Positions 5,275 to 21,693 of a stretch of 21,693 nucleotides of DNA are shown piece after piece. The notes beneath the pieces were generated by a model, which made no database searches, was not told the origin of the DNA, and saw only the letters and a program-made list of their open reading frames with translations. Positions within the stretch are counted from its first letter, which is position 1, and each line of letters starts with the position of its first letter. Position numbers and translations under genes: made by a program. Location of the stretch: IMG/VR virus record IMGVR_UViG_3300017732_000084, positions 1 to 21,693 of that record, one strand, 5' to 3'. The stretch comes from a virus.

Positions 5275-8200
5275 ATGAAAGAACTATATAACTCGCTATA
5301 TAATCAAGGTTTATATACAGGTACGTTTGAACAATTTCAATCAGACTATGGTGGTGAAAATTATCAAGAGTTATATAATAAATTAAATGATAATGATTAT
5401 TATACAGGTAGCTTTGATCAATTTAATACTGATTATGATCCAAATATAGCTGAAAAAGAAGAAACAATAACAGCTGAGGTAGATGATAAAACAAAAGATG
5501 GTATATCTGAAATTAAAATAAATGGTAATATTACAACTCGTAATAGTGCTGCTAATACAATAAATGCTGTTGAAAATATAGAAGATTTTAATAAATTAAA
5601 TATTGAAATTAACAACGATAATGAAATAAGTAATCTTTATACACAAAAACAAAAAGATTTAGAACAAAAAGATATTAATGTGTTTAAAAGTTTTGGAGCT
5701 TATGCTGGAAGCGGAATATCTAAGTTCTTTGAAGGTTTAGGAGAAACACAAGATGCTTTAATTTATGGTGCAGCTACTCTTTTTAATCCAGACATGGACA
5801 AAGAAGAAAAGTTATTATTAAAAGATAGTATAAAAAAAGGTTATATAACGCCATCATATAGTGCTAGAATACCTACACAAGAATTAGAAAACGCAACAAA
5901 GTTTTTTGATAACTACAAAAGAAAAACAGAAAGTAAAAATATTTTAGATGCTGTTGATAAAGGTAATTATTTAGAAGCAGCAGAATTAACTGTAGGAGGA
6001 GCTTTAGAATCTATTCCTTCTATAGCTTTGGTTTTTGGTGGTGGTGGTGGTTTAAGTCTTTTAGCAACAAGTGTTTCAGGTAATAAGTTTGCAGAAGAAT
6101 TTGAAAACAACCCTGATGAATCATTAGGTACATTATATGCTAATGCTGCAGGTACAGGAATAGTAGAATCTTCTTTTGAATTAGTAACAAGAGGTTTGTT
6201 AAAACAAGCTGGTATAATTGGGGGTATTAAAGGTAAAGATGTAGCTCAACAGTTTTTAAAAGATGGCGCAAAAGATCTTGTTAAAAAAGTTGGTTGGTTT
6301 GCTGGAGCAACAGGAGCTGAGGGTTTATCAGAGGCTTCAACTGAGCTCGCAACAATGTATATTGATGCATATGGTATACCAATAGCTGGTGGTCTTGGTA
6401 GTATAGGAAGTTTAAACAGAAAATCTGATTTTACTGTTGATTTTTCTGAAGGTAAGTATGGAGAAGGAATAGTAAGACTTTTTGACTCTTTTATGATAGG
6501 TTCTTTTGTAGGAGGAAATTTTCAAAGTGTAGCTGCTGTAGGTGATACTAGAAGTGCCGCTAGAAATAGAGCAGAAACATTATTAACACCTGCTTCAATA
6601 AAAAAAATATATGCCGATGGTGCAACACAACTTTCTGAAATATATAAAAACTTAGATAATCCTAATATATCAGTTCAAGCTAAAAAAATATTAAAACAAA
6701 AAGCTGAACAAATAGAACAAGATATAGCTAGAGTTAAAAAAGAAACTTCAAAAGCTTTAAATAATTTAACTAAAGATGAGTTAATAGAGAACTTTAAATA
6801 TGTAGAACAAATACAAGAAAATGTTGAAGCATATAATTCATTACCAGATAAAAGAAAATCAACTGGTAGAATACTTAGAAAAAATATACAAGAAGCACAA
6901 CAAGCGCAGCAAGATTTATTTGAACAAGCAGCACAAAGAGAATTACAAAAAAGTATAGAATTTGCTAGAACTCAAAGTGAAGAAGTAACTGGTAGAAAAA
7001 CAAAAATTATAGAAACGTTTGAAAAAGTTAGAACAGAATATGGAGATGAAGCTGCTGCTGCTGATGCATTTTTTGATCCTTCTACAGGTGATATAGTTAT
7101 TAATAAAGAAATTGCTTCTAAAACAAAAGCTGTTTCTGTTGGTAGCCATGAATTATTACATGGAATTTTGCAACAATTATCTTTGTCTGATCCATCAATT
7201 ATAACAGGTGAAGGAGGATTTTTAGAAACATTAAATGATAACCAAAGACAAGCTTTAGAAAAAAGAATTAAAGACAATGGATATACTAAAAAATATTTAA
7301 AAGCTAATCCTGATGAATATCTTACTCAGTTTTCTGATGCTATTAATGAAAACGAAATAGTTTTTGAAGAAAATTTATTTACTAAAATAGGAAATATTTT
7401 TACACCACTTTTAAGAAGATTAGGTTTTAATAAAATAAAGTTTAATACAGGTAAAGACGTGTATGACTTTATGAAAGAATATAATAAAAGTATTAAACAA
7501 GGTAAATTAACTGGTGCTATAAAAGAAGTATTACCAGATAAAACTAAAACTAAAAAAGGAGGATTAAAGTTTTCAAGATCTGCGGATATAGACGCATTAG
7601 TAGGCCCTAAAACTGATGGCCAATATACACTAACTAAAGCTGAATACCTTCGTAAAGCAGATGAAACGTTATCTAAAGTATTTCCTAAGCTTCAAGGTTT
7701 AATTGAAAGTAAAATACCTATAGATAGGCCACCTGGTTTTTCACAAGAAGATTTTGTAAGTGGTACTGTAGAAGAATTAATACCACATATAAGAAACTTT
7801 AATCCAGAACAAAACAATAGTTTATCTGGTTGGATTAATTCACAGTTACAAAATAAAATAGGTAATGTATTTAAAAAAGGCGAAGCTGCTACTAAAGAAG
7901 TATTTGAAGACGATGTAACTGAAGCTAAAGGTGTAACTGAAGTACAAGAGACAGTTGAAGAGGTAACACCAGAAACACAAACTGCTTCTAAATTAAGAAA
8001 AATAGTTGGTGTAGAAAGAAAAAGAGGTTTAGAAATAGCACGTAACATTGTTAAAGGTAAACTACCTGATCTTAATGATAAAAAACTTAGAAGTCAAATA
8101 AACAGACAGGCAAGAGATGAATATCTTACTGAAATTAGAGATTTATTAAATGATTTAACTGATAATCAAAAACTTGAAATAGTTAAAACACTACCAGTGC

Positions 8201-11200
8201 AAGATCTAGTTAAGTTAGAAAGATTACAAAAAGATAAAATATTTGCTAAAATAGTAGCAAACAACATTAACCCTACACAGGTTGACAAAGCAATTAAAGA
8301 AGGTAAATTACCTAAAGGTACAAATAGACTGTCTGGGCCTAAACTATATGAAAGACTTGATGTTACTGCAGAACAAGTTGCAGACTTTTTTACAAGTAAA
8401 AAACGTAATGCTTTTGCAGGTGTAATAGCTGAAAACTTAGTTAAAGATGCTTTACCAGAAGTTACAGCTGAACCAGAATCAAAACAAAGAAGAGCAAGAG
8501 CTGAAGAAGCACAAGGTAGAAAAGTAGTAGAAAAAGATAGAGAACAATTATTAGAAAAAGTAGAACGAGATCCTGGTTTAAAATTTAGCAAATCATTTAA
8601 AGGTGCACCAGAATATGTAATTGAATTAGGAAAAAAACTTAATACAAGATTAACTAAAAACGCTATTGATAAAGCTCTTGTTGATATAAATAATGAATTA
8701 ACAGATGAGCTTTTTGATGTATATAATAAAAAATATTTTCAACCTTATATTAAGGCAAGAAAAGCAGCTGACAAAATGGCTTGGCCTAATGCTGAAGAAA
8801 CAGTTTTAAAAAATATTAAAATATTAGAAAATAAAATTCCTGGTATTAAAATAACTCAAGTAGAATTAAATAAAGATGCTCAAAAAGTAGATATAGAATT
8901 TATATTAAATGGTGACAAAGTTTTTATTGAAGTAAAGAAAAATGATCAAGCTCGATTAAGTCAAGTTTATTTACACAGAAATAAAAAAAATAAAGTTTAT
9001 GCTACTGAAAACAGAGCTGATAAAAAATATATTGATCGTATAATAAAAGAAGATTCTAATAATAGAAATGTTTTAATAGATTTTATTAAAGAAAAATATT
9101 CTAATGAAATATTTGAAGAAAAAAGAGGTGATAAAATAAATATAGTAGTTACACCTGGTGCTTATTATGGAGCAAAAAGACAATTAGCAAAACAAAATAG
9201 AGCTGTTGAAAAAAGATTAAAATTACCTATAGATTTTGTTAGTGATGTTTATAATAGAAAAAATACATATTATATAGATTTTGGAGATATAGGTACTTTT
9301 TATATGAACAAAAATCCTCAAAATTTTCCTGTTGCTTCTTTACTACAAAAAAATAAAGATGGAAAATTAATTGATGTAGAAGTTAGAACACAATGGAAAC
9401 CAAGTAAACCAAGAGCAAATGGTAACTTTACTATTAGTAGAATTGCTGTTCCTACATTAACAAATGAAGCAAAAAAAGTTTTGTCTGATACTCAAACATT
9501 CTCAATGCAAGACGAACAGCAAGCTGAAAAGGTTTTAAATGTTAGTGGTAATAAAATATTAGCTTCAAAACTTAATAATAGTATTTTACCTCCAGTTGAT
9601 AAATTTAAAGGTGATTTTAATAATACAGAAGTATTAGATAAGATGGCTGAAGTTGATAATGCTAGTGTAAAAGAAGAAAGAAAACTTAGTAAATCAGCTA
9701 ATTTAAGTAAAGGTTTTAATGAAATACTAGAAAAGAAAACAGGTATTGCTGCAGATAAAACATATTCTAAAGTAAAAGCACAAGTAGTTGGTGCTAATAA
9801 AGGTAGATTTAATTTCTTTATACCACCATCAGCTGAAGATTTTGTAGGTTTATTATATAAAACATTAAGTAAAAACAAACTTGGTGATAGCCAAATGGCT
9901 TGGTATAAGGCACATTTATTAAATCCTTTTGCAAGAGCAATGGATAATTTAACTAGAGATAGAGTTGCTTTAATGAATGATTTTAAAGCATTAAAAAAAG
10001 AATTAAAAGTTGTACCTAAAACATTAAAGAAAAAAATACCAGGTGAAGGTTTTACACAAGAACAAGCGGTAAGAGTTTATATATGGGATCAACAAGCTAT
10101 GGATATTCCAGGCATGGAAGAATCAGATGTTAAAGAACTAGTAGACTTTGTAAATAGTAAAAAAGATTTAAAGTTATTTGCTGATCAGTTAATTGCGTTA
10201 CAAAAAGGTGATTTATATGCTGCACCAAGAGATGGTTGGAACGCTGGTACTATTACAACTGATTTAATAGAAGGTATTAATACAACTAAAAGAGCAAAAT
10301 ATTTAGAAGTATGGCAACAAAATGTAGACGAAATATTTAGCCAAGAAAATTTAAATAAGCTTGAAGCTATATATGGTAAAGGATATAGAGGTGCGTTAGA
10401 AAATATACTTAAACGTATGCAAACTGGAAGAAATAGAACTTTTCCAGGTGATTCATTAACAGGTAGATTTACAGATTGGTTAAGTAACTCTATTGGTGCT
10501 ATTATGTTTTTTAACATGAGATCAGCTGTACTTCAAACAATATCTACAGTTAACTTTATAAATTTTAGAGACAATAACATTTTAGCGGCATCAAAAGCTT
10601 TTGCTAATCAACCACAGTTTTGGGCTGACTTTAAAAAATTATTTAACTCAGACTTTTTATTAGATAGAAGAGCTGGTCTTAAGTTAAATGTACAAGAGGC
10701 TGATATTGCTGAACTTGCTAAAAAAGGTGGTGTAAGAGGTGTTATTAGTGAATTATTAAGATTAGGATTTTTACCTACACAACTTGCAGATAGTTTTGCT
10801 ATATCATCTGGTGGTGCTACTTTTTATAGAAATAGAATAAAAACATTAGAAAAACAAGGATTAACACCTAAAGAAGCAGAGAAACAAGCATTTCAAGATT
10901 TTAGAGAGGTTGCAGAAGAATCTCAACAATCAAGCAGACCTGATAGAATTAGTCAACAACAAGCAGGACCATTAGGACGTATTATATTAGCTTTTCAAAA
11001 CACTCCAATGCAATATGCTAGATTAATTAAAAAAGCCGCTAGTGATCTTAAGAATGGCCGAGGGGATGCAAAGACTAATATATCTAAAATACTGTATTAT
11101 GGTTTTGTACAAAACTTAATATTTAATACATTACAACAAGCTGCTTTTGCTTTAGGTTTTGGTGATACAGAAGAAGAAGAAGAAAAAAGAGAGAAAAAAT

Positions 11201-11709
11201 ATAATAGTATATTAAATAGTATGGCAGATAGTATTATAAGAGGTACAGGTGTTGCTGGTGTTGTGTTTGCTACTATAAAAAATACACTAATTAAATTAGA
11301 AAAAGAAAGTAAAAAGAAATCACCTAAATATCAAGATGCTGTATTAGAACTAGCACAAGTATCACCACCTTTAGGATCTAAAATAAGAAAAATACAGTCA
11401 GCTGGTAGATCTTATTCTTGGAATAAAAAAGAAATGTTAGAAAAAGGTTGGTCTATAGACAACCCAGCTTATTTAGCAGCAGGTCAAGTTATAGCTGCAA
11501 CAACCAACATACCACTAGATAGAGCGTTTAAAAAAATTGATAATATTAGAAACTCAAGTAGATCAGATTTAGAAGCTTGGCAAAGAATAGCCTTAATAGC
11601 AGGTTGGTCTGATTGGGATTTAGGTATTAAAGATGTAAAAACTAAGTCTACAAAAACCAAAAAAACAAGACGTGTAATAAAGAAAAAATCTAAAAAGAAA
11701 AAATTTTAA
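5275..11709 (+). CDS. Giant multi-domain internal virion protein with HExxH and PD-(D/E)xK-like domains
   Basis: A 2144-residue protein, far longer than T7 gp16 (about 1300). Visible parts in order: two 22-residue repeats (4-25 and 33-54); Gly-rich hydrophobic segments near 243-265 and 285-345; helical coiled regions 440-590; a zinc metallopeptidase-like motif HELLH at 625-629 with a candidate third ligand E681; an LKFSRS linker (764-769); a helical segment faintly like sigma region 2 (about 830-862); an LKFSKS linker (1102-1107); a PD-(D/E)xK nuclease-like core with E1174/E1175, D1206, E1219 and K1221; FSM (1409-1411) and KLSKS (1470-1474) linkers; and a conserved helical C-terminal region with hydrophobic helices (about 1739-1757 and 1898-1926), ending in a Lys-rich tail. 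It resembles the polyvalent proteins described for phages, which are injected with the DNA. Ejection with the genome is inferred from position after the gp14/gp15-like genes. Confidence 0.75.
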   Translation: MKELYNSLYNQGLYTGTFEQFQSDYGGENYQELYNKLNDNDYYTGSFDQFNTDYDPNIAEKEETITAEVDDKTKDGISEIKINGNITTRNSAANTINAVENIEDFNKLNIEINNDNEISNLYTQKQKDLEQKDINVFKSFGAYAGSGISKFFEGLGETQDALIYGAATLFNPDMDKEEKLLLKDSIKKGYITPSYSARIPTQELENATKFFDNYKRKTESKNILDAVDKGNYLEAAELTVGGALESIPSIALVFGGGGGLSLLATSVSGNKFAEEFENNPDESLGTLYANAAGTGIVESSFELVTRGLLKQAGIIGGIKGKDVAQQFLKDGAKDLVKKVGWFAGATGAEGLSEASTELATMYIDAYGIPIAGGLGSIGSLNRKSDFTVDFSEGKYGEGIVRLFDSFMIGSFVGGNFQSVAAVGDTRSAARNRAETLLTPASIKKIYADGATQLSEIYKNLDNPNISVQAKKILKQKAEQIEQDIARVKKETSKALNNLTKDELIENFKYVEQIQENVEAYNSLPDKRKSTGRILRKNIQEAQQAQQDLFEQAAQRELQKSIEFARTQSEEVTGRKTKIIETFEKVRTEYGDEAAAADAFFDPSTGDIVINKEIASKTKAVSVGSHELLHGILQQLSLSDPSIITGEGGFLETLNDNQRQALEKRIKDNGYTKKYLKANPDEYLTQFSDAINENEIVFEENLFTKIGNIFTPLLRRLGFNKIKFNTGKDVYDFMKEYNKSIKQGKLTGAIKEVLPDKTKTKKGGLKFSRSADIDALVGPKTDGQYTLTKAEYLRKADETLSKVFPKLQGLIESKIPIDRPPGFSQEDFVSGTVEELIPHIRNFNPEQNNSLSGWINSQLQNKIGNVFKKGEAATKEVFEDDVTEAKGVTEVQETVEEVTPETQTASKLRKIVGVERKRGLEIARNIVKGKLPDLNDKKLRSQINRQARDEYLTEIRDLLNDLTDNQKLEIVKTLPVQDLVKLERLQKDKIFAKIVANNINPTQVDKAIKEGKLPKGTNRLSGPKLYERLDVTAEQVADFFTSKKRNAFAGVIAENLVKDALPEVTAEPESKQRRARAEEAQGRKVVEKDREQLLEKVERDPGLKFSKSFKGAPEYVIELGKKLNTRLTKNAIDKALVDINNELTDELFDVYNKKYFQPYIKARKAADKMAWPNAEETVLKNIKILENKIPGIKITQVELNKDAQKVDIEFILNGDKVFIEVKKNDQARLSQVYLHRNKKNKVYATENRADKKYIDRIIKEDSNNRNVLIDFIKEKYSNEIFEEKRGDKINIVVTPGAYYGAKRQLAKQNRAVEKRLKLPIDFVSDVYNRKNTYYIDFGDIGTFYMNKNPQNFPVASLLQKNKDGKLIDVEVRTQWKPSKPRANGNFTISRIAVPTLTNEAKKVLSDTQTFSMQDEQQAEKVLNVSGNKILASKLNNSILPPVDKFKGDFNNTEVLDKMAEVDNASVKEERKLSKSANLSKGFNEILEKKTGIAADKTYSKVKAQVVGANKGRFNFFIPPSAEDFVGLLYKTLSKNKLGDSQMAWYKAHLLNPFARAMDNLTRDRVALMNDFKALKKELKVVPKTLKKKIPGEGFTQEQAVRVYIWDQQAMDIPGMEESDVKELVDFVNSKKDLKLFADQLIALQKGDLYAAPRDGWNAGTITTDLIEGINTTKRAKYLEVWQQNVDEIFSQENLNKLEAIYGKGYRGALENILKRMQTGRNRTFPGDSLTGRFTDWLSNSIGAIMFFNMRSAVLQTISTVNFINFRDNNILAASKAFANQPQFWADFKKLFNSDFLLDRRAGLKLNVQEADIAELAKKGGVRGVISELLRLGFLPTQLADSFAISSGGATFYRNRIKTLEKQGLTPKEAEKQAFQDFREVAEESQQSSRPDRISQQQAGPLGRIILAFQNTPMQYARLIKKAASDLKNGRGDAKTNISKILYYGFVQNLIFNTLQQAAFALGFGDTEEEEEKREKKYNSILNSMADSIIRGTGVAGVVFATIKNTLIKLEKESKKKSPKYQDAVLELAQVSPPLGSKIRKIQSAGRSYSWNKKEMLEKGWSIDNPAYLAAGQVIAATTNIPLDRAFKKIDNIRNSSRSDLEAWQRIALIAGWSDWDLGIKDVKTKSTKTKKTRRVIKKKSKKKKF
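5284..5436 (+). repeat. Two tandem N-terminal YTGxFxxFxxDY repeats in the giant virion protein
   Basis: Residues 4-25 and 33-54 of the giant protein are imperfect copies of one unit (LYN-L---G-YTG-F-QF--DY), spaced 29 residues apart. They may be a docking or packaging tag at the protein's N-terminus. The repeat is at protein level; the DNA copies have diverged. Confidence 0.75.
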
Positions 11710-13574: not shown

Positions 13575-15293
13575 TTAACCATCACAAGCTAAACAGTTTT
13601 CATCCATAGCTGAAGCAGCAATATCACCTCTAAGAACTGATTCAGTTCTCATATAGTATAAAGTTTTAATACCTTTTTTCCACGCATCAAAATGTACTTT
13701 ATTAATCCATTTAGGTGTTGCTTCAGAAGGAAAAGCTAAATTAAGAGATACAGATTGATCAACATATTGTTGTCTTAATCCTGCTTGATTTATTAATTCT
13801 AATTGATTAATCTCTTTAAATGTTTTAAAAACTTCTTTAGCCGATATGTTGTTATTAAACATAATATCATCAAGTTCTCTAATATTCTGTACAGAACCTC
13901 CGTCTTCAAGTATTTTATCCCAAATTTCATTTGTGTTAAGTTTATATTTTCTTAATAATTTTATAAGTGTAGGGTTTTTTCTAATAAATGTACCTTTAGC
14001 TGATTGTTCTGTAAATACATTAGCAGCCCATGGTTCAATACCTGGTGATATATTACCTGATAATTTACTATTACTAACAGTTGGTGCTATAGCTCTAAGA
14101 TGAGTATTACGCATACCTGTACCTACACACCATAAAGGTTCTCCATAAGTTTCAGCTAGGTTTCTACTTGCTCTATCAGATTCTATTTTTATCTGACTAA
14201 ATATTTTTCTAGTTTCATATTGTGCCAATAGCCCTTCAAATGGTATATTTTTTTCTTGTAAATAAGTATGCCAACCTAAAACTCCTAAACCTAATGCTCT
14301 ACCTTTTTCAGCAGATCTAACTGAATTTTCAAAACCTATTTTACCTTTTGCTTTTTGTATAAACTCTTCTAATACACCGTCTAAAAACCATATTGAATCA
14401 TAAATAATGTTAGTATTTTTCCACTCTTCATATTTAGCTAGGTTTAAACTAGATAAACAACAAACAAAACTATGAGATTCATCTGTTTGTAATACTATTT
14501 CACTACATATATTAGTCATATGTACTTTTAAACTGTTTTTCTTATATGCTTCTGGATTAGCTTTGTTTGTATTTCCTTTAAATAAGATGTATGGTTCTCC
14601 AGTTGCTTTACGTTTTTGAAGTAATCTACTCCATTTGTTTCTTGCGTCTTGATCTCCTTGCTCAAGCTTTCTCATAAACTTATCGCCAATGACAGCACAC
14701 TGGTGAAGGTTAAGAGATTGTCTATTGACATCTCCTTTAGGTTCTCTAATTTCCAACCACTCGAGGAAATCACTGTGTTCAATGTTGATATTAACGCTTG
14801 CAGCTCCTCTTCTAACGGAACCCTGATTGGTCGCGAGTATAGTTGAGTCGTATATTTTGCAAAAAGGGACAACGCCATCTGAAGTTCCATTACCTGTAAT
14901 TTTAGCTCCGGCAGGGCGAATCATATTAATGCCTATACCTACACCGCCGCCGTGTTTTGCAAGTAACATCATTTCTAAATTTTTCTTTCCTATATCATTT
15001 ATACTATCAGCAACATCAATACCAAAACAACTTATTGGTAAACCTCTATCTGTACCTGTATTTGATAACACAGGTGAAGCTAAACAAAGCCAACCATTCC
15101 ATATATATTCAAAAAATCTATCAGCTAGTTCTGGTTTATATAAACGTCTAGCTACTGTTTTAGCTACACGCATATAAGCATCACGAGGTGATTCACCGTT
15201 AAATAAATATCCGCCAGATATTGTTTGTTTGTATATATCATTATTACCCCAAGAAGGATAATCTTCACCTTTTACCCAATCGTTATTCCACAT
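13575..15293 (-). CDS. nrdA: Ribonucleoside-diphosphate reductase class I, alpha subunit
   Basis: A 572-residue large subunit that reduces ribonucleotides to deoxyribonucleotides for phage DNA synthesis, working with the beta subunit encoded at 16952-17920. Key residues are visible: C89 in LPISCFG (redox-active), N261-x-C263-x-E265 in TNICSEI (thiyl radical site), C278 in SFVCCLSSLNL (partner of C89), a Tyr pair in TLYYMRTESVLRGD (radical path), and a C-terminal C567-x-x-C570 tail that re-reduces the active site. It is shorter than the bacterial enzyme (about 760), and no N-terminal ATP-cone is seen, so allosteric dATP inhibition is probably absent, as in many phage forms. The segment 14640-14955 has very different codon usage from the rest. 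It is the last gene before the terminator, and its start overlaps the upstream gene by 11 bases. Confidence 0.95.
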   Translation of the reverse strand: MWNNDWVKGEDYPSWGNNDIYKQTISGGYLFNGESPRDAYMRVAKTVARRLYKPELADRFFEYIWNGWLCLASPVLSNTGTDRGLPISCFGIDVADSINDIGKKNLEMMLLAKHGGGVGIGINMIRPAGAKITGNGTSDGVVPFCKIYDSTILATNQGSVRRGAASVNINIEHSDFLEWLEIREPKGDVNRQSLNLHQCAVIGDKFMRKLEQGDQDARNKWSRLLQKRKATGEPYILFKGNTNKANPEAYKKNSLKVHMTNICSEIVLQTDESHSFVCCLSSLNLAKYEEWKNTNIIYDSIWFLDGVLEEFIQKAKGKIGFENSVRSAEKGRALGLGVLGWHTYLQEKNIPFEGLLAQYETRKIFSQIKIESDRASRNLAETYGEPLWCVGTGMRNTHLRAIAPTVSNSKLSGNISPGIEPWAANVFTEQSAKGTFIRKNPTLIKLLRKYKLNTNEIWDKILEDGGSVQNIRELDDIMFNNNISAKEVFKTFKEINQLELINQAGLRQQYVDQSVSLNLAFPSEATPKWINKVHFDAWKKGIKTLYYMRTESVLRGDIAASAMDENCLACDG

Positions 15294-15657
15294 GATTTAA
15301 TTTTAAAGTTGCTTTTGTTAGTTCTGCTATAGTGTTTATATCACCTGTATAAGTAGCTATTATTTTTTTATTTTCTAACATACGATATGTTATATTTACT
15401 TTCCATCTATTATCATGGTTTATTAATTTAGTATCAATAGCATAATTACTAGTTATTTTAACTATTTTTTCTACTACAGCTGATGGATCTCCAAAACTAA
15501 AAGTATATATTTCTAATATATCATCTTTTTCATTGTATGTAAAAATTTTATACCAATATGAATAAGGTGAAGACCATATACCTTCAAAATCTTGTAAAGT
15601 GTTTTGACTAAATAAACTGTTTGATAAAAATAAAAATAATATTATTAGTTTTTTCAT
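15283..15657 (-). CDS. Secreted small protein with Bacteroidota-type signal peptide
   Basis: A 124-residue protein. Residues 1-18 form a classic signal peptide: MKK, a hydrophobic core LIILFLFLSNSL, and FSQ at the predicted cleavage site, the pattern common in Bacteroidota exported proteins. The mature part has alternating polar and aromatic strands (GIWSSPYSYWYKIF, ILEIYTFSFGDPS, KVNITYRMLENKKIIATYTG) and looks like a small beta-barrel or lipocalin-like domain. There is no lipobox Cys. It lies between nrdA (11-base overlap) and a coiled-coil gene (ATGA overlap). A periplasmic or surface role during infection, such as blocking superinfection, is possible but unproven. Confidence 0.7.
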   Translation of the reverse strand: MKKLIILFLFLSNSLFSQNTLQDFEGIWSSPYSYWYKIFTYNEKDDILEIYTFSFGDPSAVVEKIVKITSNYAIDTKLINHDNRWKVNITYRMLENKKIIATYTGDINTIAELTKATLKLNHVE

Positions 15658-15884
15658 TTTGTTTCTAGTTTTTTTTCTTTATTTTTTTCTTGTAGTTTTT
15701 TCATTTTTTCTACAAGTTTATTCCATTCATCTTCACCCATAAACATTTGTAAAGAACTTAATGTTCCATTAGCTAAAGTTTCTAATTTAGAAACATCTTG
15801 AATTAATCTTTGTAACACTCTACTTATAGCATTAATTTTTTTATCTGTTTCATTTAATTTACCTATTAATTTACTTTCTTTCAT
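15654..15884 (-). CDS. Coiled-coil small protein
   Basis: A 76-residue, nearly all-helical protein with heptad-like spacing of Leu/Ile through residues 5-50 and a Lys/Glu-rich tail (KMKKLQEKNKEKK). There is no signal peptide or membrane segment. It overlaps both neighbours through ATGA junctions, which implies translational coupling with the zinc-ribbon membrane protein upstream and the secreted protein downstream. Oligomerisation is likely; the function is not recognised. Confidence 0.6.
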   Translation of the reverse strand: MKESKLIGKLNETDKKINAISRVLQRLIQDVSKLETLANGTLSSLQMFMGEDEWNKLVEKMKKLQEKNKEKKLETK

Positions 15885-16231
15885 TGCATTGAATATATTG
15901 TGTAACCTATAATTACATTAATGTTTACTAAAACTAAATTCCATTGTTTTGCTACCCACACTTGAGGTATGGAAATTAAACCTCCTAAAATATAACAAAC
16001 AACACCTATATTTCCTTGTGGCAATAAATAAGGGCCTACCATAATAAATGCTGTACCCATATATCCTAATCTATTTGCTATTCGTTCTTTTGCGCTTAAT
16101 CTTCTATCATGTACTAATAATCTTAAAAAAGATCTTTTCCATCTAAACTCACAACGCATACAAGTTTTTTTATATTCGTGTTTAAATTTAGAATCTTTTT
16201 TTGTTTTTTTACATATATTACAAGTTCTCAT
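15881..16231 (-). CDS. Zinc-ribbon plus three-helix membrane protein
   Basis: A 116-residue protein. Residues C4-x2-C7 and C24-x2-C27 form a four-Cys zinc ribbon. A basic linker (28-53) follows, then three hydrophobic helices at about 54-70, 75-93 and 98-115. PQ pairs occur at the ends of the first two helices (71-72 and 89-90), and an Asn-rich third helix starts QWNLVLVNINV. I recall similar three-helix PQ-containing proteins in marine phages. A relation to small PQ-loop/SemiSWEET-type transporters is conceivable, but the PQ placement does not match their usual order. The start overlaps the end of the oxygenase gene by 14 bases and the end couples to the coiled-coil gene. Confidence 0.6.
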   Translation of the reverse strand: MRTCNICKKTKKDSKFKHEYKKTCMRCEFRWKRSFLRLLVHDRRLSAKERIANRLGYMGTAFIMVGPYLLPQGNIGVVCYILGGLISIPQVWVAKQWNLVLVNINVIIGYTIYSMQ

Positions 16232-16783
16232 ATTTATAAAACATTACAAAAACAATTCTGCTTTCTTTAAATTTATTAGGATATTTACTATGAAAATAAT
16301 TACAAGGATAAGATAATAATCTATTTTTTTTATGTCCTATTATGCTTTTAACATTCCATTTTTTTAAATCTTCAGCATCTTCTTTTAACATTCTATTAAA
16401 CTCTTCTGCATTTGTATTCTTATAGGTATCTCCATATTTTTTATGTTTCCAAAAAGCAGTACCATTAATTTTTTTTAATTTATTATCAGATAAATATAAA
16501 ACTATAGCTCGATCTGGTTGTTTATTTTCTATTATTGAATCATTATGTATTCTCCATTTATCATCTTGATTTTCTTTTGCTTCTCTAAAAAAAGCTAAAA
16601 TATTTGTAATTTTTTTATTTTCTATTAATTGTAATCTTTTACAAATATAATCTATAAACTCATTAGTAGCATTTTTTATCCAAAAGCTTTTACCTGGTGT
16701 GTCTACTTTTTTAAAACTATTAAGATCTTTTATTACAAAATCTAAAATTTTTTTATCTAAAAATTATCTACAAAATAAACCAT
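16218..16783 (-). pseudogene. 2-oxoglutarate/Fe(II) oxygenase-like gene with a -1 frameshift near the start
   Basis: The main frame (16763 down to 16218, TAA) has no usable ATG. An ATG at 16783-16781, one base after the previous gene's stop, starts MVYFVDNF and then hits TAG at 16759-16757. Shifting at the five-T tract restores a smooth 188-residue protein, MVYFVDNFLDKKILDFVIKD onward. In that numbering the catalytic triad of the family is visible: H80-x-D82 (RIHND) and H165 (YPCNYFHSKYPN), with R176 (KESRIVFV) eleven residues later to hold 2-oxoglutarate. It resembles the DUF6445-like oxygenases of phages, which also have an NGTAFWKHKKYG block. It may be a real mutation, a sequencing indel, or slippage at U-UUU-UAG. 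The body is well preserved, so any loss is recent. Confidence 0.75.
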
Positions 16784-16784
16784 T

Positions 16785-16958
16785 TTATTTTTTATAAATT
16801 TTTACTGATTGTTCTTCAGCTAAAGCTCTTTTAGTATCAAAGCTACCATTTTTTAAATAAGGATAAAAATGTTTTTCTTCCCAATGTTCTCTATACTCTA
16901 CACCACTAGGAAACTCTGCATCACATTGACTACATTTTATTATATTTCTTTTTACCAT
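16785..16958 (-). CDS. C2H2 zinc-finger small protein
   Basis: A 57-residue protein from ATG 16958 to TAA 16785. The finger is C9-x2-C12-x12-H25-x4-H30 (KCSQCDAEFPSGVEYREHW then EEKH), a typical C2H2 spacing. A short helical tail ends in KIYKK. The ATG overlaps the last 7 bases of nrdB, and the stop is followed after one base by the ATG of the oxygenase gene, so it is coupled to both. DNA or protein binding is the usual role of such fingers. No target can be read. Confidence 0.7.
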   Translation of the reverse strand: MVKRNIIKCSQCDAEFPSGVEYREHWEEKHFYPYLKNGSFDTKRALAEEQSVKIYKK

Positions 16959-17920
16959 ATATCTTCAAAATCTTCGCCCTCATTCGCTTTTGAATAATCA
17001 GTAGGCCTAACAGCGAAAAAATCAGTATGAGTATGCCCTCCTGTAAGGTGGTAGAACCAATCAAGTTTTTTTGCTGCGTTTTTGTTATAATCAAAGTGCT
17101 CCCGTTCGTTCCTGTAACCGAGTTCCACGAGCTTTTCATTAAGTCTTTTTCTGATAAATTGTTTAAGATCGTAGGATTTGAGGTTTTCAATATCTCCTTG
17201 TTCAAACATTTTATCAATATATTTTTCTTCTGCGATGAGCATTGCGTTTGCTGCATTAATAACATCTTTTTTACATTTATTTAAAAGTGAATTATCTTCT
17301 TCACACATATGTCTAAATAACCTACAACCCATTTTAGAATGTAAAGATTCGTCTCTAACAGACCATTTCATTTGCTGACCTATACCTTTTAAAAGATTTC
17401 TGAGTTGAAAACTATATAAAACAGCAAAGGCAGAATAAAGACTAACGCCTTCAGCAAAGGCGCTAAAGATTGCAATGCTTCTTGCAATTCCTGTGGTGTC
17501 GTTTCCATCATAACTAATTAAATTATCAAAGCGTTCCATTGTTGCTTCGTCTTGTAAAAACGCTTCAAAATTTTCAAGACCAAGTGTTTCATTTAAATAA
17601 GAATAAGCTACTGCGTGTATTGTTTCTTGTGATCCAAACATCATAGCCATTTGTTGTATTTCATGTTTAGGAAACCAGCCTACAACTTTTTGTGTCCAAT
17701 AATCTGATACAGCACACTCTGTCTGTGCAAAACCTAGTAATATATTACCTACTAAATTTTTTTCACCATCAGTAAGTTTTTCTTGCCAGTCTTTAACATC
17801 ACTTGACATAGGTATTTCTGTGTGTAACCAAAAAGCTTGTGCTTGTTTTAACCATCCATCATTATAGTATTCAGGATATTCAAATGGTTTATAATGTATT
17901 CTTTGATCAAATAATCCCAT
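16952..17920 (-). CDS. nrdB: Ribonucleoside-diphosphate reductase class I, beta subunit
   Basis: A 322-residue small subunit that holds the di-metal/tyrosyl radical cofactor and passes the radical to NrdA. Ligands match the family: E68 (FAQTECAVSD), E99 and H102 (SQETIHAVAY), E157 (FAEGVSLYSAF), E191 and H194 (RDESLHSKMG). The radical Tyr is Y106, seven residues after E99 as in E. coli E115/Y122. The first ligand is Glu rather than the Asp of E. coli. The C-terminal tail (EGEDFEDIW) is an acidic, aromatic-ended peptide suited to docking on NrdA. Codon usage shifts to a GC-richer style in about 16965-17160 and 17405-17510. It starts 2 bases after the lipoprotein gene's stop. nrdA is separated from it by five other genes, an unusual split. 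Confidence 0.95.
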   Translation of the reverse strand: MGLFDQRIHYKPFEYPEYYNDGWLKQAQAFWLHTEIPMSSDVKDWQEKLTDGEKNLVGNILLGFAQTECAVSDYWTQKVVGWFPKHEIQQMAMMFGSQETIHAVAYSYLNETLGLENFEAFLQDEATMERFDNLISYDGNDTTGIARSIAIFSAFAEGVSLYSAFAVLYSFQLRNLLKGIGQQMKWSVRDESLHSKMGCRLFRHMCEEDNSLLNKCKKDVINAANAMLIAEEKYIDKMFEQGDIENLKSYDLKQFIRKRLNEKLVELGYRNEREHFDYNKNAAKKLDWFYHLTGGHTHTDFFAVRPTDYSKANEGEDFEDIW

Positions 17921-17922
17921 AT

Positions 17923-18168
17923 TTATTTTTTTAGTTTATATGGTCTGGATTTAGGATAACGTTTGTTATCAAATATATAATGTCTATATGTTAGTCTAAC
18001 TTGAGGATTGAAAGGTCTTAACCCTTGTTGAAAATCCATTTGATCTTTATCAAACTGACCATCATTGTTTAATGGTATATCGTAAGTTGTCCTAGCTTCA
18101 ACAAATAATTGTCCTCCAGCACACGAGGTTAATAGTATTATCATACTAAAGTAAAATAATTTTTTCAT
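17923..18168 (-). CDS. Small lipoprotein
   Basis: An 81-residue protein with a lipoprotein signal: MKK, the hydrophobic core LFYFSMIILL, and lipobox L-T-S-C16 followed by AGGQ. After lipidation the mature chain of about 66 residues is polar and basic towards the end (RYPKSRPYKLKK). It lacks membrane helices. It lies between nrdB (2 bases downstream) and a small cytosolic protein. Phage lipoproteins often sit in the outer membrane and block receptors against superinfection; that role is inference from type only. Confidence 0.7.
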   Translation of the reverse strand: MKKLFYFSMIILLTSCAGGQLFVEARTTYDIPLNNDGQFDKDQMDFQQGLRPFNPQVRLTYRHYIFDNKRYPKSRPYKLKK

Positions 18169-18187
18169 AATATTTAATTTAATTTAT

Positions 18188-18331
18188 TTAATCTTTAAAA
18201 ACTTCTAAACACAAGTCGACAAACGGTAAATAAATAACGTGTTGTACAGATCCCTTGTGATCATAAGATCTTATACCTATAAGTATACCGGGATAAAAAC
18301 CTAATGTTAACTCCCAACTTCTTTCTTTCAT
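18188..18331 (-). CDS. 47-residue conserved phage protein (ELTLGFYPG family)
   Basis: A 47-residue frame from ATG 18331 to TAA 18188. It reads MKERSWELTLGFYPGILIGI, then RSYDHKGSVQHVIYLPFVDL and CLEVFKD. I recall many marine phages with a near-identical short protein carrying ELTLGFYPGI-FGIR-Y and an IPFVDL-L end, of unknown function. The ATG overlaps nothing and starts one base after the stop of the gene before it. The well-formed pattern makes this a real gene despite its size. Confidence 0.75.
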   Translation of the reverse strand: MKERSWELTLGFYPGILIGIRSYDHKGSVQHVIYLPFVDLCLEVFKD

Positions 18332-18332
18332 T

Positions 18333-18503
18333 TTAATAGCATTTTATATTAAACTTGTCTTGCATTTCTACAAGATCTTTATATAGGATAAAACCTTTAT
18401 ATTCTCCTCTCCACTTTACCCATTTATCAATTTGTCTTTCAGCATATTTTTGTCTAGCTAATTGTTTTTTGTTTCTTGTATCAGCTTTATTGTTATATCG
18501 CAT
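18333..18503 (-). CDS. 56-residue basic protein overlapping the resolvase gene
   Basis: A 56-residue frame from ATG 18503 to TAA 18333. The N-terminal half is a basic helix (NKKQLARQKYAERQIDKWVK), followed by WRGEYKGFILYKDLVEMQ. It begins inside the 3' end of the resolvase gene, overlapping by 46 bases, and ends one base before the next ATG. The later part, outside the overlap, reads as good protein. The only other in-frame Met is at residue 46. Function is not recognised. Confidence 0.6.
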   Translation of the reverse strand: MRYNNKADTRNKKQLARQKYAERQIDKWVKWRGEYKGFILYKDLVEMQDKFNIKCY

Positions 18504-18904
18504 TCTTTTTGATTTTGTGGTTTGTAAAGAGTAACACCAGGTAAATGGTTTACTATGTATTTTTTAAACATTTTCCAACGTAAAGGAAAACTTTCATTTG
18601 CTCTTCCTTTAGTTTCAATTATAAAACCTTTACCTATAAAATCCGGCGTGTATTTAATGTTAAGAATTTTTTTATTACCTCTATTTTTGTAATCTCCTTT
18701 ACCATTACCACACCTTTCATAAGATTCATGAGGAAAATCAAACCCTGAAAATATTTCATAAGTTTGTCCTTCATAAACTACAGGTATTCTAGCTTTTTTT
18801 AAAGCTATATACATATATTTTTCAAGACCTGAAGCAAAATTAATACCATCGTGTGATATTTTTTTAGACTGTACAGGTCCTTTTTTACGGCGAAACTTCT
18901 TCAT
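18458..18904 (-). CDS. T7 endonuclease I-like Holliday junction resolvase
   Basis: A 148-residue nuclease, the same size as T7 gp3 (149). The PD-(D/E)xK core is complete: E28 (ASGLEKYMYIALKKA), P87-D88 (KYTPDFIGKG), E97-x-K99 (FIIETKGR). The order and spacing match endonuclease I, which cuts branched DNA to resolve junctions and, in T7-like phages, helps degrade host DNA. The N-terminus is basic (KKFRRKKGP). It overlaps the upstream helical gene by 20 bases and the downstream small gene by 46 bases. It ends in TAG, rare here. Confidence 0.85.
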   Translation of the reverse strand: MKKFRRKKGPVQSKKISHDGINFASGLEKYMYIALKKARIPVVYEGQTYEIFSGFDFPHESYERCGNGKGDYKNRGNKKILNIKYTPDFIGKGFIIETKGRANESFPLRWKMFKKYIVNHLPGVTLYKPQNQKECDITIKLIQETKNN

Positions 18905-19154
18905 AATCTACATGAATATGCTTTAATACTCCTTCTTCTATTTCATCTTGTAGACATTGTTTAGCAGCTTCAATATATAATAATGCATCCATTATTTCTT
19001 CTTGTACATCAACTAAAAATTCATGTAATCCTTTTTTACCTTCTTTAACTTCAGACATCATTGTACGACCATATTTTTTTTGGCCAACTAAACTACGCTG
19101 ATCCATTTTTTTAATAACAGCTTTTACTATATCATCTTTTGTATTTAATTTCAT
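18885..19154 (-). CDS. MazG-like/all-alpha small protein with EExxD motif
   Basis: An 89-residue helical protein. Residues 19-31 (QRSLVGQKKYGRT) and 45-65 (EFLVDVQEEIMDALLYIEAA) resemble the phage family with RSxxGxxKYG, then helices carrying E52-E53-x-x-D56. That family belongs to, or lies near, the all-alpha NTP pyrophosphohydrolases, but only one half of the metal-binding motif is seen, so catalysis would need a dimer partner. It lies directly after the GIY-YIG/MazG fusion gene (1-base gap) and overlaps the resolvase start by 20 bases. A nucleotide-pool role fits the neighbours. Confidence 0.55.
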   Translation of the reverse strand: MKLNTKDDIVKAVIKKMDQRSLVGQKKYGRTMMSEVKEGKKGLHEFLVDVQEEIMDALLYIEAAKQCLQDEIEEGVLKHIHVDYEEVSP

Positions 19155-19155
19155 A

Positions 19156-19929
19156 TTATTTATCTTTTACAAATGTTCCGTTTACCATTTTACCTGTTCT
19201 ATTTTTAATTTCATTGTAAGCGCTTGATATACAAGTTTCTATATGTACACCTCTTTGATTTGCTAAGTTAGTTAAAACTACAACAATATCACCTATAGCA
19301 TCTATAACTTCTTCTTGATTATTTTTCAACAAAGCTTCTGCTAGCTCACCAGCTTCTTCTTGTAATTTCATATACTGAACGTGTATGTTACCTTTTTCAT
19401 ATATACCTTTTTCTTCAGCCCAATCTCTAATTTGTTGAAACATTTTTAAAGGTTTTTTATTACATTTTTTAACTTTTGTTTCTGTAGTTAAAAACGCTTC
19501 ATAGTAAGCTTTATTATATATATAAGATCTATCTTCATTATACATAGATTTTTTAGCATTTTGTATAATCCAATACATAGTTTCATCTGAAATTATATAT
19601 GTACCATGTGATGTATCCCACTCAGTACCTTTAGCATTATTCAACATTGCAGGTAGATCTTGTAGAGAACATGGAAATGTTGTTGTTTGCTCTGTTATAT
19701 TTATTTTCATTTTATTAGAATTAATTAATTTGTTATAACGTTGTCTATCAACTTTATAGCCATAAGACTTTTGAAGTTCTATCTCCTTTTCAGATATATA
19801 ATCTATATCCTCACTAGTTTCTAGAACTTCATACTCTCCTTCTTTATACCCTTGTATAAGTGTAACTCTTGTATTAAGATTACGTGTCACTCCTATTTTT
19901 TTACCAGGTATATGATATAAGTAATACAT
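19156..19929 (-). CDS. GIY-YIG-like domain fused to a MazG-type pyrophosphohydrolase
   Basis: A 257-residue fusion. Residues 1-68 resemble a short GIY-YIG nuclease of the T5orf172 kind: YYLYHIPGKKIGVTRNLNTR with the conserved Arg region at 16-21, and a later Glu (E49/E51) before QKSYGYKVD. Residues 73-155 form an unrecognised middle domain (TEWDTSHGTYIISDETMYWI). Residues 162-257 are MazG-like, with E191-E192-x-x-E195 (QEEAGELAEALL) and D210-x3-D214 (IDAIGDIVVVL), the Mg-binding motif of NTP/dNTP pyrophosphohydrolases, and a typical KNRTGKMVNGTF tail. MazG enzymes hydrolyse non-canonical or excess (d)NTPs or ppGpp. The fold of the N-terminal part is less sure than the MazG part. It starts 5 bases after the ThyA-like gene. 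Confidence 0.7.
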   Translation of the reverse strand: MYYLYHIPGKKIGVTRNLNTRVTLIQGYKEGEYEVLETSEDIDYISEKEIELQKSYGYKVDRQRYNKLINSNKMKINITEQTTTFPCSLQDLPAMLNNAKGTEWDTSHGTYIISDETMYWIIQNAKKSMYNEDRSYIYNKAYYEAFLTTETKVKKCNKKPLKMFQQIRDWAEEKGIYEKGNIHVQYMKLQEEAGELAEALLKNNQEEVIDAIGDIVVVLTNLANQRGVHIETCISSAYNEIKNRTGKMVNGTFVKDK

Positions 19930-19934
19930 AAGTT

Positions 19935-20588
19935 TTATTTGATTTTATTATTATATAAATGTAGATTATGAGCAAAGTGATAATATGTACCTATAGGTAC
20001 ATTTATTCTTTGTGATACAAGCTTTTGTAACATAGAAAAACAGTACTGATCATTACAAAATCCATACCATAAATCATTAGATCTCATTAATACAGCCATA
20101 TTTAATTTATTATTAACTATACTAAACTGTACAGCGTATGTACATGGTGTATCTTTTGTATATGTATTTATTTCTTTACCATCATAAATACTTATAGCAG
20201 CTTGTCTCGTATCTTTAACTTTTTTTAACATAGCTACAACATGATCTAATTGATAATTCCTACTCCATTGCCAACCATAATTAGACCTACATTTACCTTC
20301 TGAGTCTTGCATTTTTTCCCAAATTGGAGGTACATTACCATATATTTCACCTAGTTGTGATATATGAGGATCTTCAGTTAAATACCACTCCCATTCAGCT
20401 TGCGCATATTTTTTATTCCAGTTTCTTCCTTCATGAGTAATATCAACATCATTTGGGTTTTCAATATAAAAACCTATATTAAATAAAGCTTTAGTATCTC
20501 CATACTCTATACCGTCTTTAATTATTTTTTTGTAAAAATATTTAAAAACTTTGTCTGCATTTAAAAAACTATTTTTTACGTTTGTCAT
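19935..20588 (-). CDS. ThyA-family enzyme (thymidylate synthase or dCMP/dUMP hydroxymethylase)
   Basis: A 217-residue protein of the ThyA fold, shorter than E. coli ThyA (264). Matching residues: E65 (AEWEWYL), I89-W90 (PPIWEKM), Y104-x-x-Q/W (SNYGWQW), R128 for phosphate (DTRQAAI), nucleophile C149 (DTPCTYAVQFS), R169-S170-x-D172 (MRSNDLWYG), and H210-x-Y212 (NLHLY). The enzyme transfers a one-carbon unit from methylene-tetrahydrofolate to C5 of dUMP or dCMP. An ungapped alignment puts D180 (FCNDQYCFSML) at E. coli Asn177, the residue that selects dUMP; Asp there is typical of dCMP hydroxymethylase. The substrate is thus uncertain. The start overlaps the upstream small gene by 20 bases. Confidence 0.85.
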   Translation of the reverse strand: MTNVKNSFLNADKVFKYFYKKIIKDGIEYGDTKALFNIGFYIENPNDVDITHEGRNWNKKYAQAEWEWYLTEDPHISQLGEIYGNVPPIWEKMQDSEGKCRSNYGWQWSRNYQLDHVVAMLKKVKDTRQAAISIYDGKEINTYTKDTPCTYAVQFSIVNNKLNMAVLMRSNDLWYGFCNDQYCFSMLQKLVSQRINVPIGTYYHFAHNLHLYNNKIK

Positions 20589-20841
20589 AATAATATTTAC
20601 ACATTTGATAATAAGATTCCATTACATTGTCTTGAGTATAAATTGATGGAGAAACGTGTGGTGTTTCACCTTTTTTATACGGTCCTAAACTTACTGTAAT
20701 ATACCATTTTCCTTTTTCACCATCAACAGGTTTTTGTGATATTCTTATATTGTTATTAACACAATATCTATACCATTTGTTTTCTTCAGAACCTGCTGAA
20801 TATTGTGGTAATGAATTAGCATATTTATTTTTTAATCCCAT
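20569..20841 (-). CDS. Small hypothetical phage protein between helicase and ThyA-like genes
   Basis: A 90-residue protein with no recognised family. It starts MGLKNKYANSLPQYSAGSEE, has a strand-rich middle (RISQKPVDGEKGKWYITVSL, GPYKKGETPHVSPS) and ends in a Tyr/Lys-rich helix (VMESYYQMCKYYYDKRKK). The KWYITVSLG and YTQDNVMESYY parts suggest a compact alpha/beta or ssDNA-associated accessory domain, but this is only an impression. It overlaps the helicase gene end by 10 bases and the ThyA-like start by 20 bases. It stops with TAG. Co-transcription with the replication genes is likely. Confidence 0.6.
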   Translation of the reverse strand: MGLKNKYANSLPQYSAGSEENKWYRYCVNNNIRISQKPVDGEKGKWYITVSLGPYKKGETPHVSPSIYTQDNVMESYYQMCKYYYDKRKK

Positions 20842-21693
20842 GGCATTATATCAATTACATCTTTATTAATTTCATGAGGAATAAAACATCCTGATTTAGG
20901 TTCCCATTTAAAATGTGCTTCAGCGCCATTTTCACCTAAGTTTTGAAATTTAACTTTTAATACTTTAGCTTTAACTGTTTTTTCTTCATAGTTTCTATGT
21001 ACTAATATACCATGGTAACTTGCATCATACCATTCACCTCCACCTTTAATATTATACATATTAGGTTCTTCAAGCTTACCATCTTTATCTCTATACATTT
21101 TTGTAGGATGTGCTACAATAAAAACTAATACATCAAACTTTTTAGCAAACACCTCAATTTTTGTAAGGTATTCCATAGTATAACGATTAACATCTTCTGT
21201 TTTGCAATCAACATCTCTAATTTTATTAAATGGATCTATAACTAAACATTTTATACCTTTTCTTTTAACAAGCTCTGCACCCTTTTTTAATACAGATTCT
21301 AAAGTATAACGCTCCATATCAATAAAAAAGAAATTATCATTAATATGTTCTGCAACTTTATTCCACTGTGTTGTGTTTATATCTCCAGGTGTAGGCATAT
21401 CTTGCCATACTTTACGCATAAGTTTATGTGCGTGTAAATATGTAGGTGCATTTTCAGGTGATGCAAAAGCTGTTTTCCATTTATAATTTACGTTGTATCC
21501 GACCACCATTTGATCCACGAAGTCAGACTTACCACTGCTAGGTATGCCAGCTTCATAAAAAGATAAAACGTCCATTTCTCCTTCCACAATATAACAATCA
21601 TTATACCCAACAATGTTATCAATATTATAAAATATTTTTTCTGCTCCTTTATATAGTTTAAAGTTTTTTCTACCATCTCTGTATTTTATATTA
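20832..21693 (-). CDS. Primase-helicase (TOPRIM + DnaB-like RecA core), 5' part outside window, internal deletion
   Basis: The frame is open to the window end, so the GTG at 21587 is not the true start. The first codons read NIKYRDGRKNFKLYKGAEKI, then the TOPRIM signature YIVEGEMDVLSFYEAGI. In T7 gp4/Twinkle-type proteins the TOPRIM should continue for well over 100 residues before the helicase. Here EAGIP runs straight into the Walker A PSSGKSDF (junction 21540-21548), so most of TOPRIM and the linker are missing in frame. The helicase part is intact: Walker B KCLVIDPFNKI, VAHPTKMYRDKDGK, GGGEWYDASYHGILVHR and a C-terminal PWD end. It would unwind DNA as a hexamer, but primer synthesis is doubtful. 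Confidence 0.88.
   Translation of the reverse strand, partial: NIKYRDGRKNFKLYKGAEKIFYNIDNIVGYNDCYIVEGEMDVLSFYEAGIPSSGKSDFVDQMVVGYNVNYKWKTAFASPENAPTYLHAHKLMRKVWQDMPTPGDINTTQWNKVAEHINDNFFFIDMERYTLESVLKKGAELVKRKGIKCLVIDPFNKIRDVDCKTEDVNRYTMEYLTKIEVFAKKFDVLVFIVAHPTKMYRDKDGKLEEPNMYNIKGGGEWYDASYHGILVHRNYEEKTVKAKVLKVKFQNLGENGAEAHFKWEPKSGCFIPHEINKDVIDIMPWD

Follow-up and report, generated by a model that had tools for sequence, protein, structure and literature searches.

The right-hand end of a viral contig presents the first motif of a TOPRIM primase domain running straight into the Walker A motif of a helicase, which raises the question of whether it encodes a new kind of primase-helicase or has been put together wrongly at this point. 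The window analyzed here is the whole linear virus record, 21,693 bases in length. A minus-strand frame (21692–20832) is open for 286 residues followed by a stop codon and exits the right-hand end of the contig; because the contig ends there, the gene is without its 5' part. What remains is the 3' portion of a standard T7 gp4-type primase-helicase gene, from which an internal 429 nt are missing compared with all relatives. The translation contains ...CYIVEGEMDVLSFYEAGIPSSGKSDFVDQMVVGYN...; here PSSGKSDF (Walker A, GIPSSGKSDF) comes directly after the first TOPRIM motif, VEGEMDVLSFYEAGI, in the same frame. The direct, in-frame join that a preliminary description had placed within 21525–21600 is thus borne out by the frame and its Pfam matches. 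All features of the gene lie on the minus strand. Upstream of the join (21551–21693) are the end of the N-terminal RNA-polymerase subdomain and the first TOPRIM strand and helix, with the motif EGEMD, and the join itself is a 12-nt stretch, CTGGCATACCTA (21539–21550), which is common to both parent sites and holds the codons for a GIP tripeptide. The helicase Walker A, or P-loop, GIPSSGKS spans 21525–21548 but lacks the preceding β-strand (QFITVT in relatives), and the DnaB/gp4-type helicase domain (20832–21538) is collinear with the relatives. DnaB_C is matched by residues 48–236 over profile positions 25–216 (E 5e-7), and the TOPRIM remnant corresponds to only the first 19–21 positions of the Toprim_2 and Toprim_4 models. 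The window copy therefore has no complete TOPRIM with both EGE and DxD motifs, the DxD falling within the missing segment, and it is also devoid of the primase-helicase linker.

A first scan of IMG/VR gave 464 confirmed stretches related to the gene, the best of them 93% identical, and the loci fetched in two scans include 145 in which both sites are read in one continuous alignment. The remaining fetched loci are cut by contig ends or by apparent frameshifts, none by a 429-nt deletion. The frameshift-broken genes, L054 (at 2788–2789) and L090 (at 2093–2100 and 2511–2518), appear as overlapping alignment pieces in different frames and possibly reflect sequencing errors. The closest long relative, L002, lies on a 65-kb contig (G002) and encodes a 571-residue protein with 93% identity to that of the window. 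In this protein Toprim_2 is matched at residues 176–266 over the whole model (1–88 of 88, E 1e-16) and DnaB_C at 310–523 from its first position (E 1e-9), so that the intact parent gene carries TOPRIM and then a DnaB/gp4-type helicase in one chain. A CPWSHEH...C...CHNC pattern, read by eye only, is found at its N-terminus; the window contig ends before the N-terminal zinc-binding domain. More distant primase-helicases, at 33–42% identity to the window, are encoded by cultured Bacteroidota phages.

Alignment with L001 and L002 shows that the window tracks the upstream copy until CTGGCATACCTA and then the downstream copy, with 429 nt dropped, the absent 143 residues being those between the GIP sites at 191 and 334 of L002. 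The part upstream of the join is 91% identical to L001 and L002 at the nucleotide level and the downstream part about 89–90%, and over the final 8 kb of the window G002 runs collinear except for the 429-nt gap. A spacing of more than 100 residues had been expected in this family, and the GIP-to-GIP distance is indeed 429 nt (143 codons) in 124 of 124 distinct relative sequences. This constancy of TOPRIM and linker led us to reject the converse reading, that an intein or intron sits at the Walker A of the relatives. The proposal of a short-homology crossover at the GIP sites also holds, in that the missing segment lies exactly between the two GIP triplets. The intact relatives L075 and L158 carry CTGGTATACCTA, a perfect direct repeat of 12 nt, at both sites in the same register, and the window keeps a single copy, CTGGCATACCTA, at its join; in the other relatives, 2–10 nt are shared between the two sites. 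One short-homology event therefore accounts for the join. Because GIP is specified by the two repeats in a common phase, the frame and the Walker A consensus are retained automatically, and in-frame continuity is consequently no sign of selection. The helicase side had further been described as GC-richer, with a change in codon usage. Its 40% GC at 21481–21540 is real; the argument drawn from GC and codon usage finds no support, because 9% of all window 60-mers are as GC-rich and the relatives span 27–42% in the same stretch, which is no sign of foreign DNA. A foreign helicase half is likewise rejected, as both sides of the join share their nearest relatives.

The junction was then sought elsewhere, a check for which the preliminary description had called. 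The exact junction 31-mer gave no match elsewhere in 2.9 million viral contigs, and two degenerate junction codon patterns returned from the same contigs only three matches, all to unrelated proteins. With a junction-spanning protein query of 81 residues, the best 80 of 595 relatives all stopped aligning at residues 50–53. A 44-residue junction peptide compared with 50,697 phage records revealed no second case in the records inspected. Of two apparent one-piece matches (E about 3), phi19:1 was dismissed, since its protein was read and is intact; the other, Nekkels_2, has an equal score and identity. Nor was the junction pattern encountered a second time in the contigs of 84,980 bacterial and archaeal genomes. 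A shared variant is rejected on the basis of these exact, degenerate and junction-spanning searches.

The join also lies close to a contig end, the window contig ending 143 nt beyond the repeat. Relatives have 23 contig ends in the 3 kb upstream of the Walker A GIP, and 9 of these lie in the 150 nt next to it, a clustering with a binomial P of about 8e-7 if ends are taken to be uniform and independent; assemblies thus break in this region. The clustered left ends belong to L009, L012, L029, L036, L037, L055, L056, L058, and L080, and right ends on the other side to L100 and L102. Strong conservation at Walker A was considered as a cause of the breaks and discarded: it is only moderate there, peaking at 0.85 where the mean is 0.75, and no such breaks occur in other stretches with higher conservation.

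The preliminary description had left the choice between a natural deletion and a chimeric assembly. We favor the latter, with a probability of roughly three in four: judged from sequence, the join is probably no phage allele but a chimera of in vitro or in silico origin, and the arrangement in the window most likely reflects sequencing or assembly, not a novel protein type. What is observed directly is the absence of 429 nt, the short repeat that relatives carry, the unique junction and its position at a contig end; from these we infer an origin outside the phage, and the route. The parent gene is a T7 gp4-type primase-helicase of the usual kind, about 571 residues long, in which two 12-nt GIP-encoding stretches lie 429 nt apart. 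Near the contig end these stretches would have been joined through the short repeat, dropping the intervening 143 codons. The template may have switched while the library was prepared or the whole genome amplified, or an assembler may have bridged the gap from one dead end to another. The product would be in frame, with the Walker A consensus restored, by virtue of the repeated GIP codons. Dead ends that are linked by read pairs can be joined by some assemblers across overlaps of roughly 10 bases, and the 429-nt gap is about the size of a short-read insert. A repeat of 12 nt is shorter than the usual assembly k-mers, however, which makes simple repeat collapse unlikely and calls for a chimeric molecule or overlap-based gap closure. 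Chimeras formed during multiple displacement amplification (MDA) join at matches of 2–21 nt, about once per 22 kb of DNA, but 85% are inversions and direct-orientation joins within 10 kb, the type seen here, are a small minority (11 of 475; PMC1855051). It is also documented that viral contig ends can be wrongly extended with reads belonging to other parts of the same genome (PMC7953547). Against a chimera, other contigs that end in the primase-helicase gene stay collinear with their relatives at the tip, and misjoined tips are thus not frequent here.

Deletion between short direct repeats is also known to take place in phages in vivo, where short-homology deletion is common, and this weighs against an artificial origin. 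The main alternative is accordingly a real but non-functional 429-bp deletion that arose in vivo when the GIP repeats slipped or recombined through their short homology. Its carriers would be defective or minority genomes, reliant on intact phages sharing the cell. Such an event would find its 12-nt direct repeats in real genomes, and the equal distance of both sides of the join from L001 and L002 is what one parent genome would give. It would nevertheless have to be abundant enough to become the assembled version, and no other record with the junction was found in the searches described above. It would also remove the only Toprim_2 domain found in the relatives: eight relatives of 65–70 kb, searched for second matches to DnaB_C and Toprim_2, have one of each. 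The TOPRIM codons that are retained differ from L001 by 4 synonymous and 5 non-synonymous changes, within the spread among intact relatives; they show no clear relaxation of selection, the changes being too few to tell. We therefore prefer a chimera, given that the junction is unique, lies 143 nt from the contig end and costs the only detected TOPRIM primase domain, and regard the natural, non-functional deletion as unlikely.

The content of the lost segment bears on whether the product could work. It holds the catalytic TOPRIM DxD, whose aspartates (Asp-230 and Asp-232 of L002) are invariant in 44 aligned sequences, together with the linker and QFITVT, the strand leading into the P-loop. T7 gp4 requires its linker to form active hexamers, and in that protein β1 (residues 307–313) precedes Walker A (PMC9198812). 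AlphaFold2 gave no structure for residues 1–56 of the fusion, with mean pLDDT values per block of 20–27 up to residue 50, whereas in the intact control TOPRIM was modeled at pLDDT 67–91 with strands at 174–179 and 329–332; this comparison counts little, because both alignments are shallow. A functional primase-negative helicase, that is, a living lineage that shed most of TOPRIM and the linker through the in-frame deletion, kept only the first TOPRIM strand and helix, is primed by the host or another phage gene and still assembles, is thus very improbable. In its favor, the frame stays open, a Walker A consensus is retained and Twinkle of metazoans is a known helicase-only relative (PMC3610141). 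Against it, the linker and β1 equivalent are gone, the model (weakly) shows no ordered N-terminus and relatives contain no second Toprim_2 domain; Twinkle, for its part, became inactive as a primase because the sequence of its primase domain changed, not through such a deletion (PMC3610141).

Elsewhere in the window, a 2144-residue protein (5275–11709) matches no Pfam or PHROG model. Positions 8585–9549 inside it have no DNA match to G002, which is otherwise 92–95% identical, and may therefore represent a divergent or swapped segment. On the minus strand, 13575–20588 form a nucleotide-metabolism block with the large and small subunits of ribonucleotide reductase, a MazG-like pyrophosphatase, thymidylate synthase and a Holliday-junction-resolvase-like/DUF1064 protein.

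The locus serves as a caution that one 12-nt chimera at a contig tip can yield an in-frame fusion of two domains whose motifs are both preserved, the frame surviving because the tripeptide codons are repeated. When viral contigs are mined for unusual primase-helicase architectures, joins seen in a single contig near its end should be discarded. A real join, by contrast, would be informative about the parts of gp4 that helicase function requires. Compared with known amplification and assembly chimeras, the window shares a join within one genome at a match in the 2–21 nt range (PMC1855051) and the setting of contig-end errors (PMC7953547); it differs from most MDA chimeras in its direct orientation, and an MDA origin would presuppose that the sample was amplified. 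T7 gp4 (PDB IDs 6n7i, 5ikn, 1q57, and 1nui) resembles L002 over residues 137–557 (E 1e-15), and in both proteins TOPRIM is followed by the linker and then the helicase; the window copy differs in having neither the 143 residues that separate the first TOPRIM motif from Walker A nor the 5' part. The intact relative likewise matches the DNA primase/helicase family PHROG 239 (phrog_239) over residues 25–561 (E 7e-84), and the primase-helicases of the cultured phages examined, Cellulophaga phage phi10:1 and Flavobacterium phages, keep the segment that is missing in the window.
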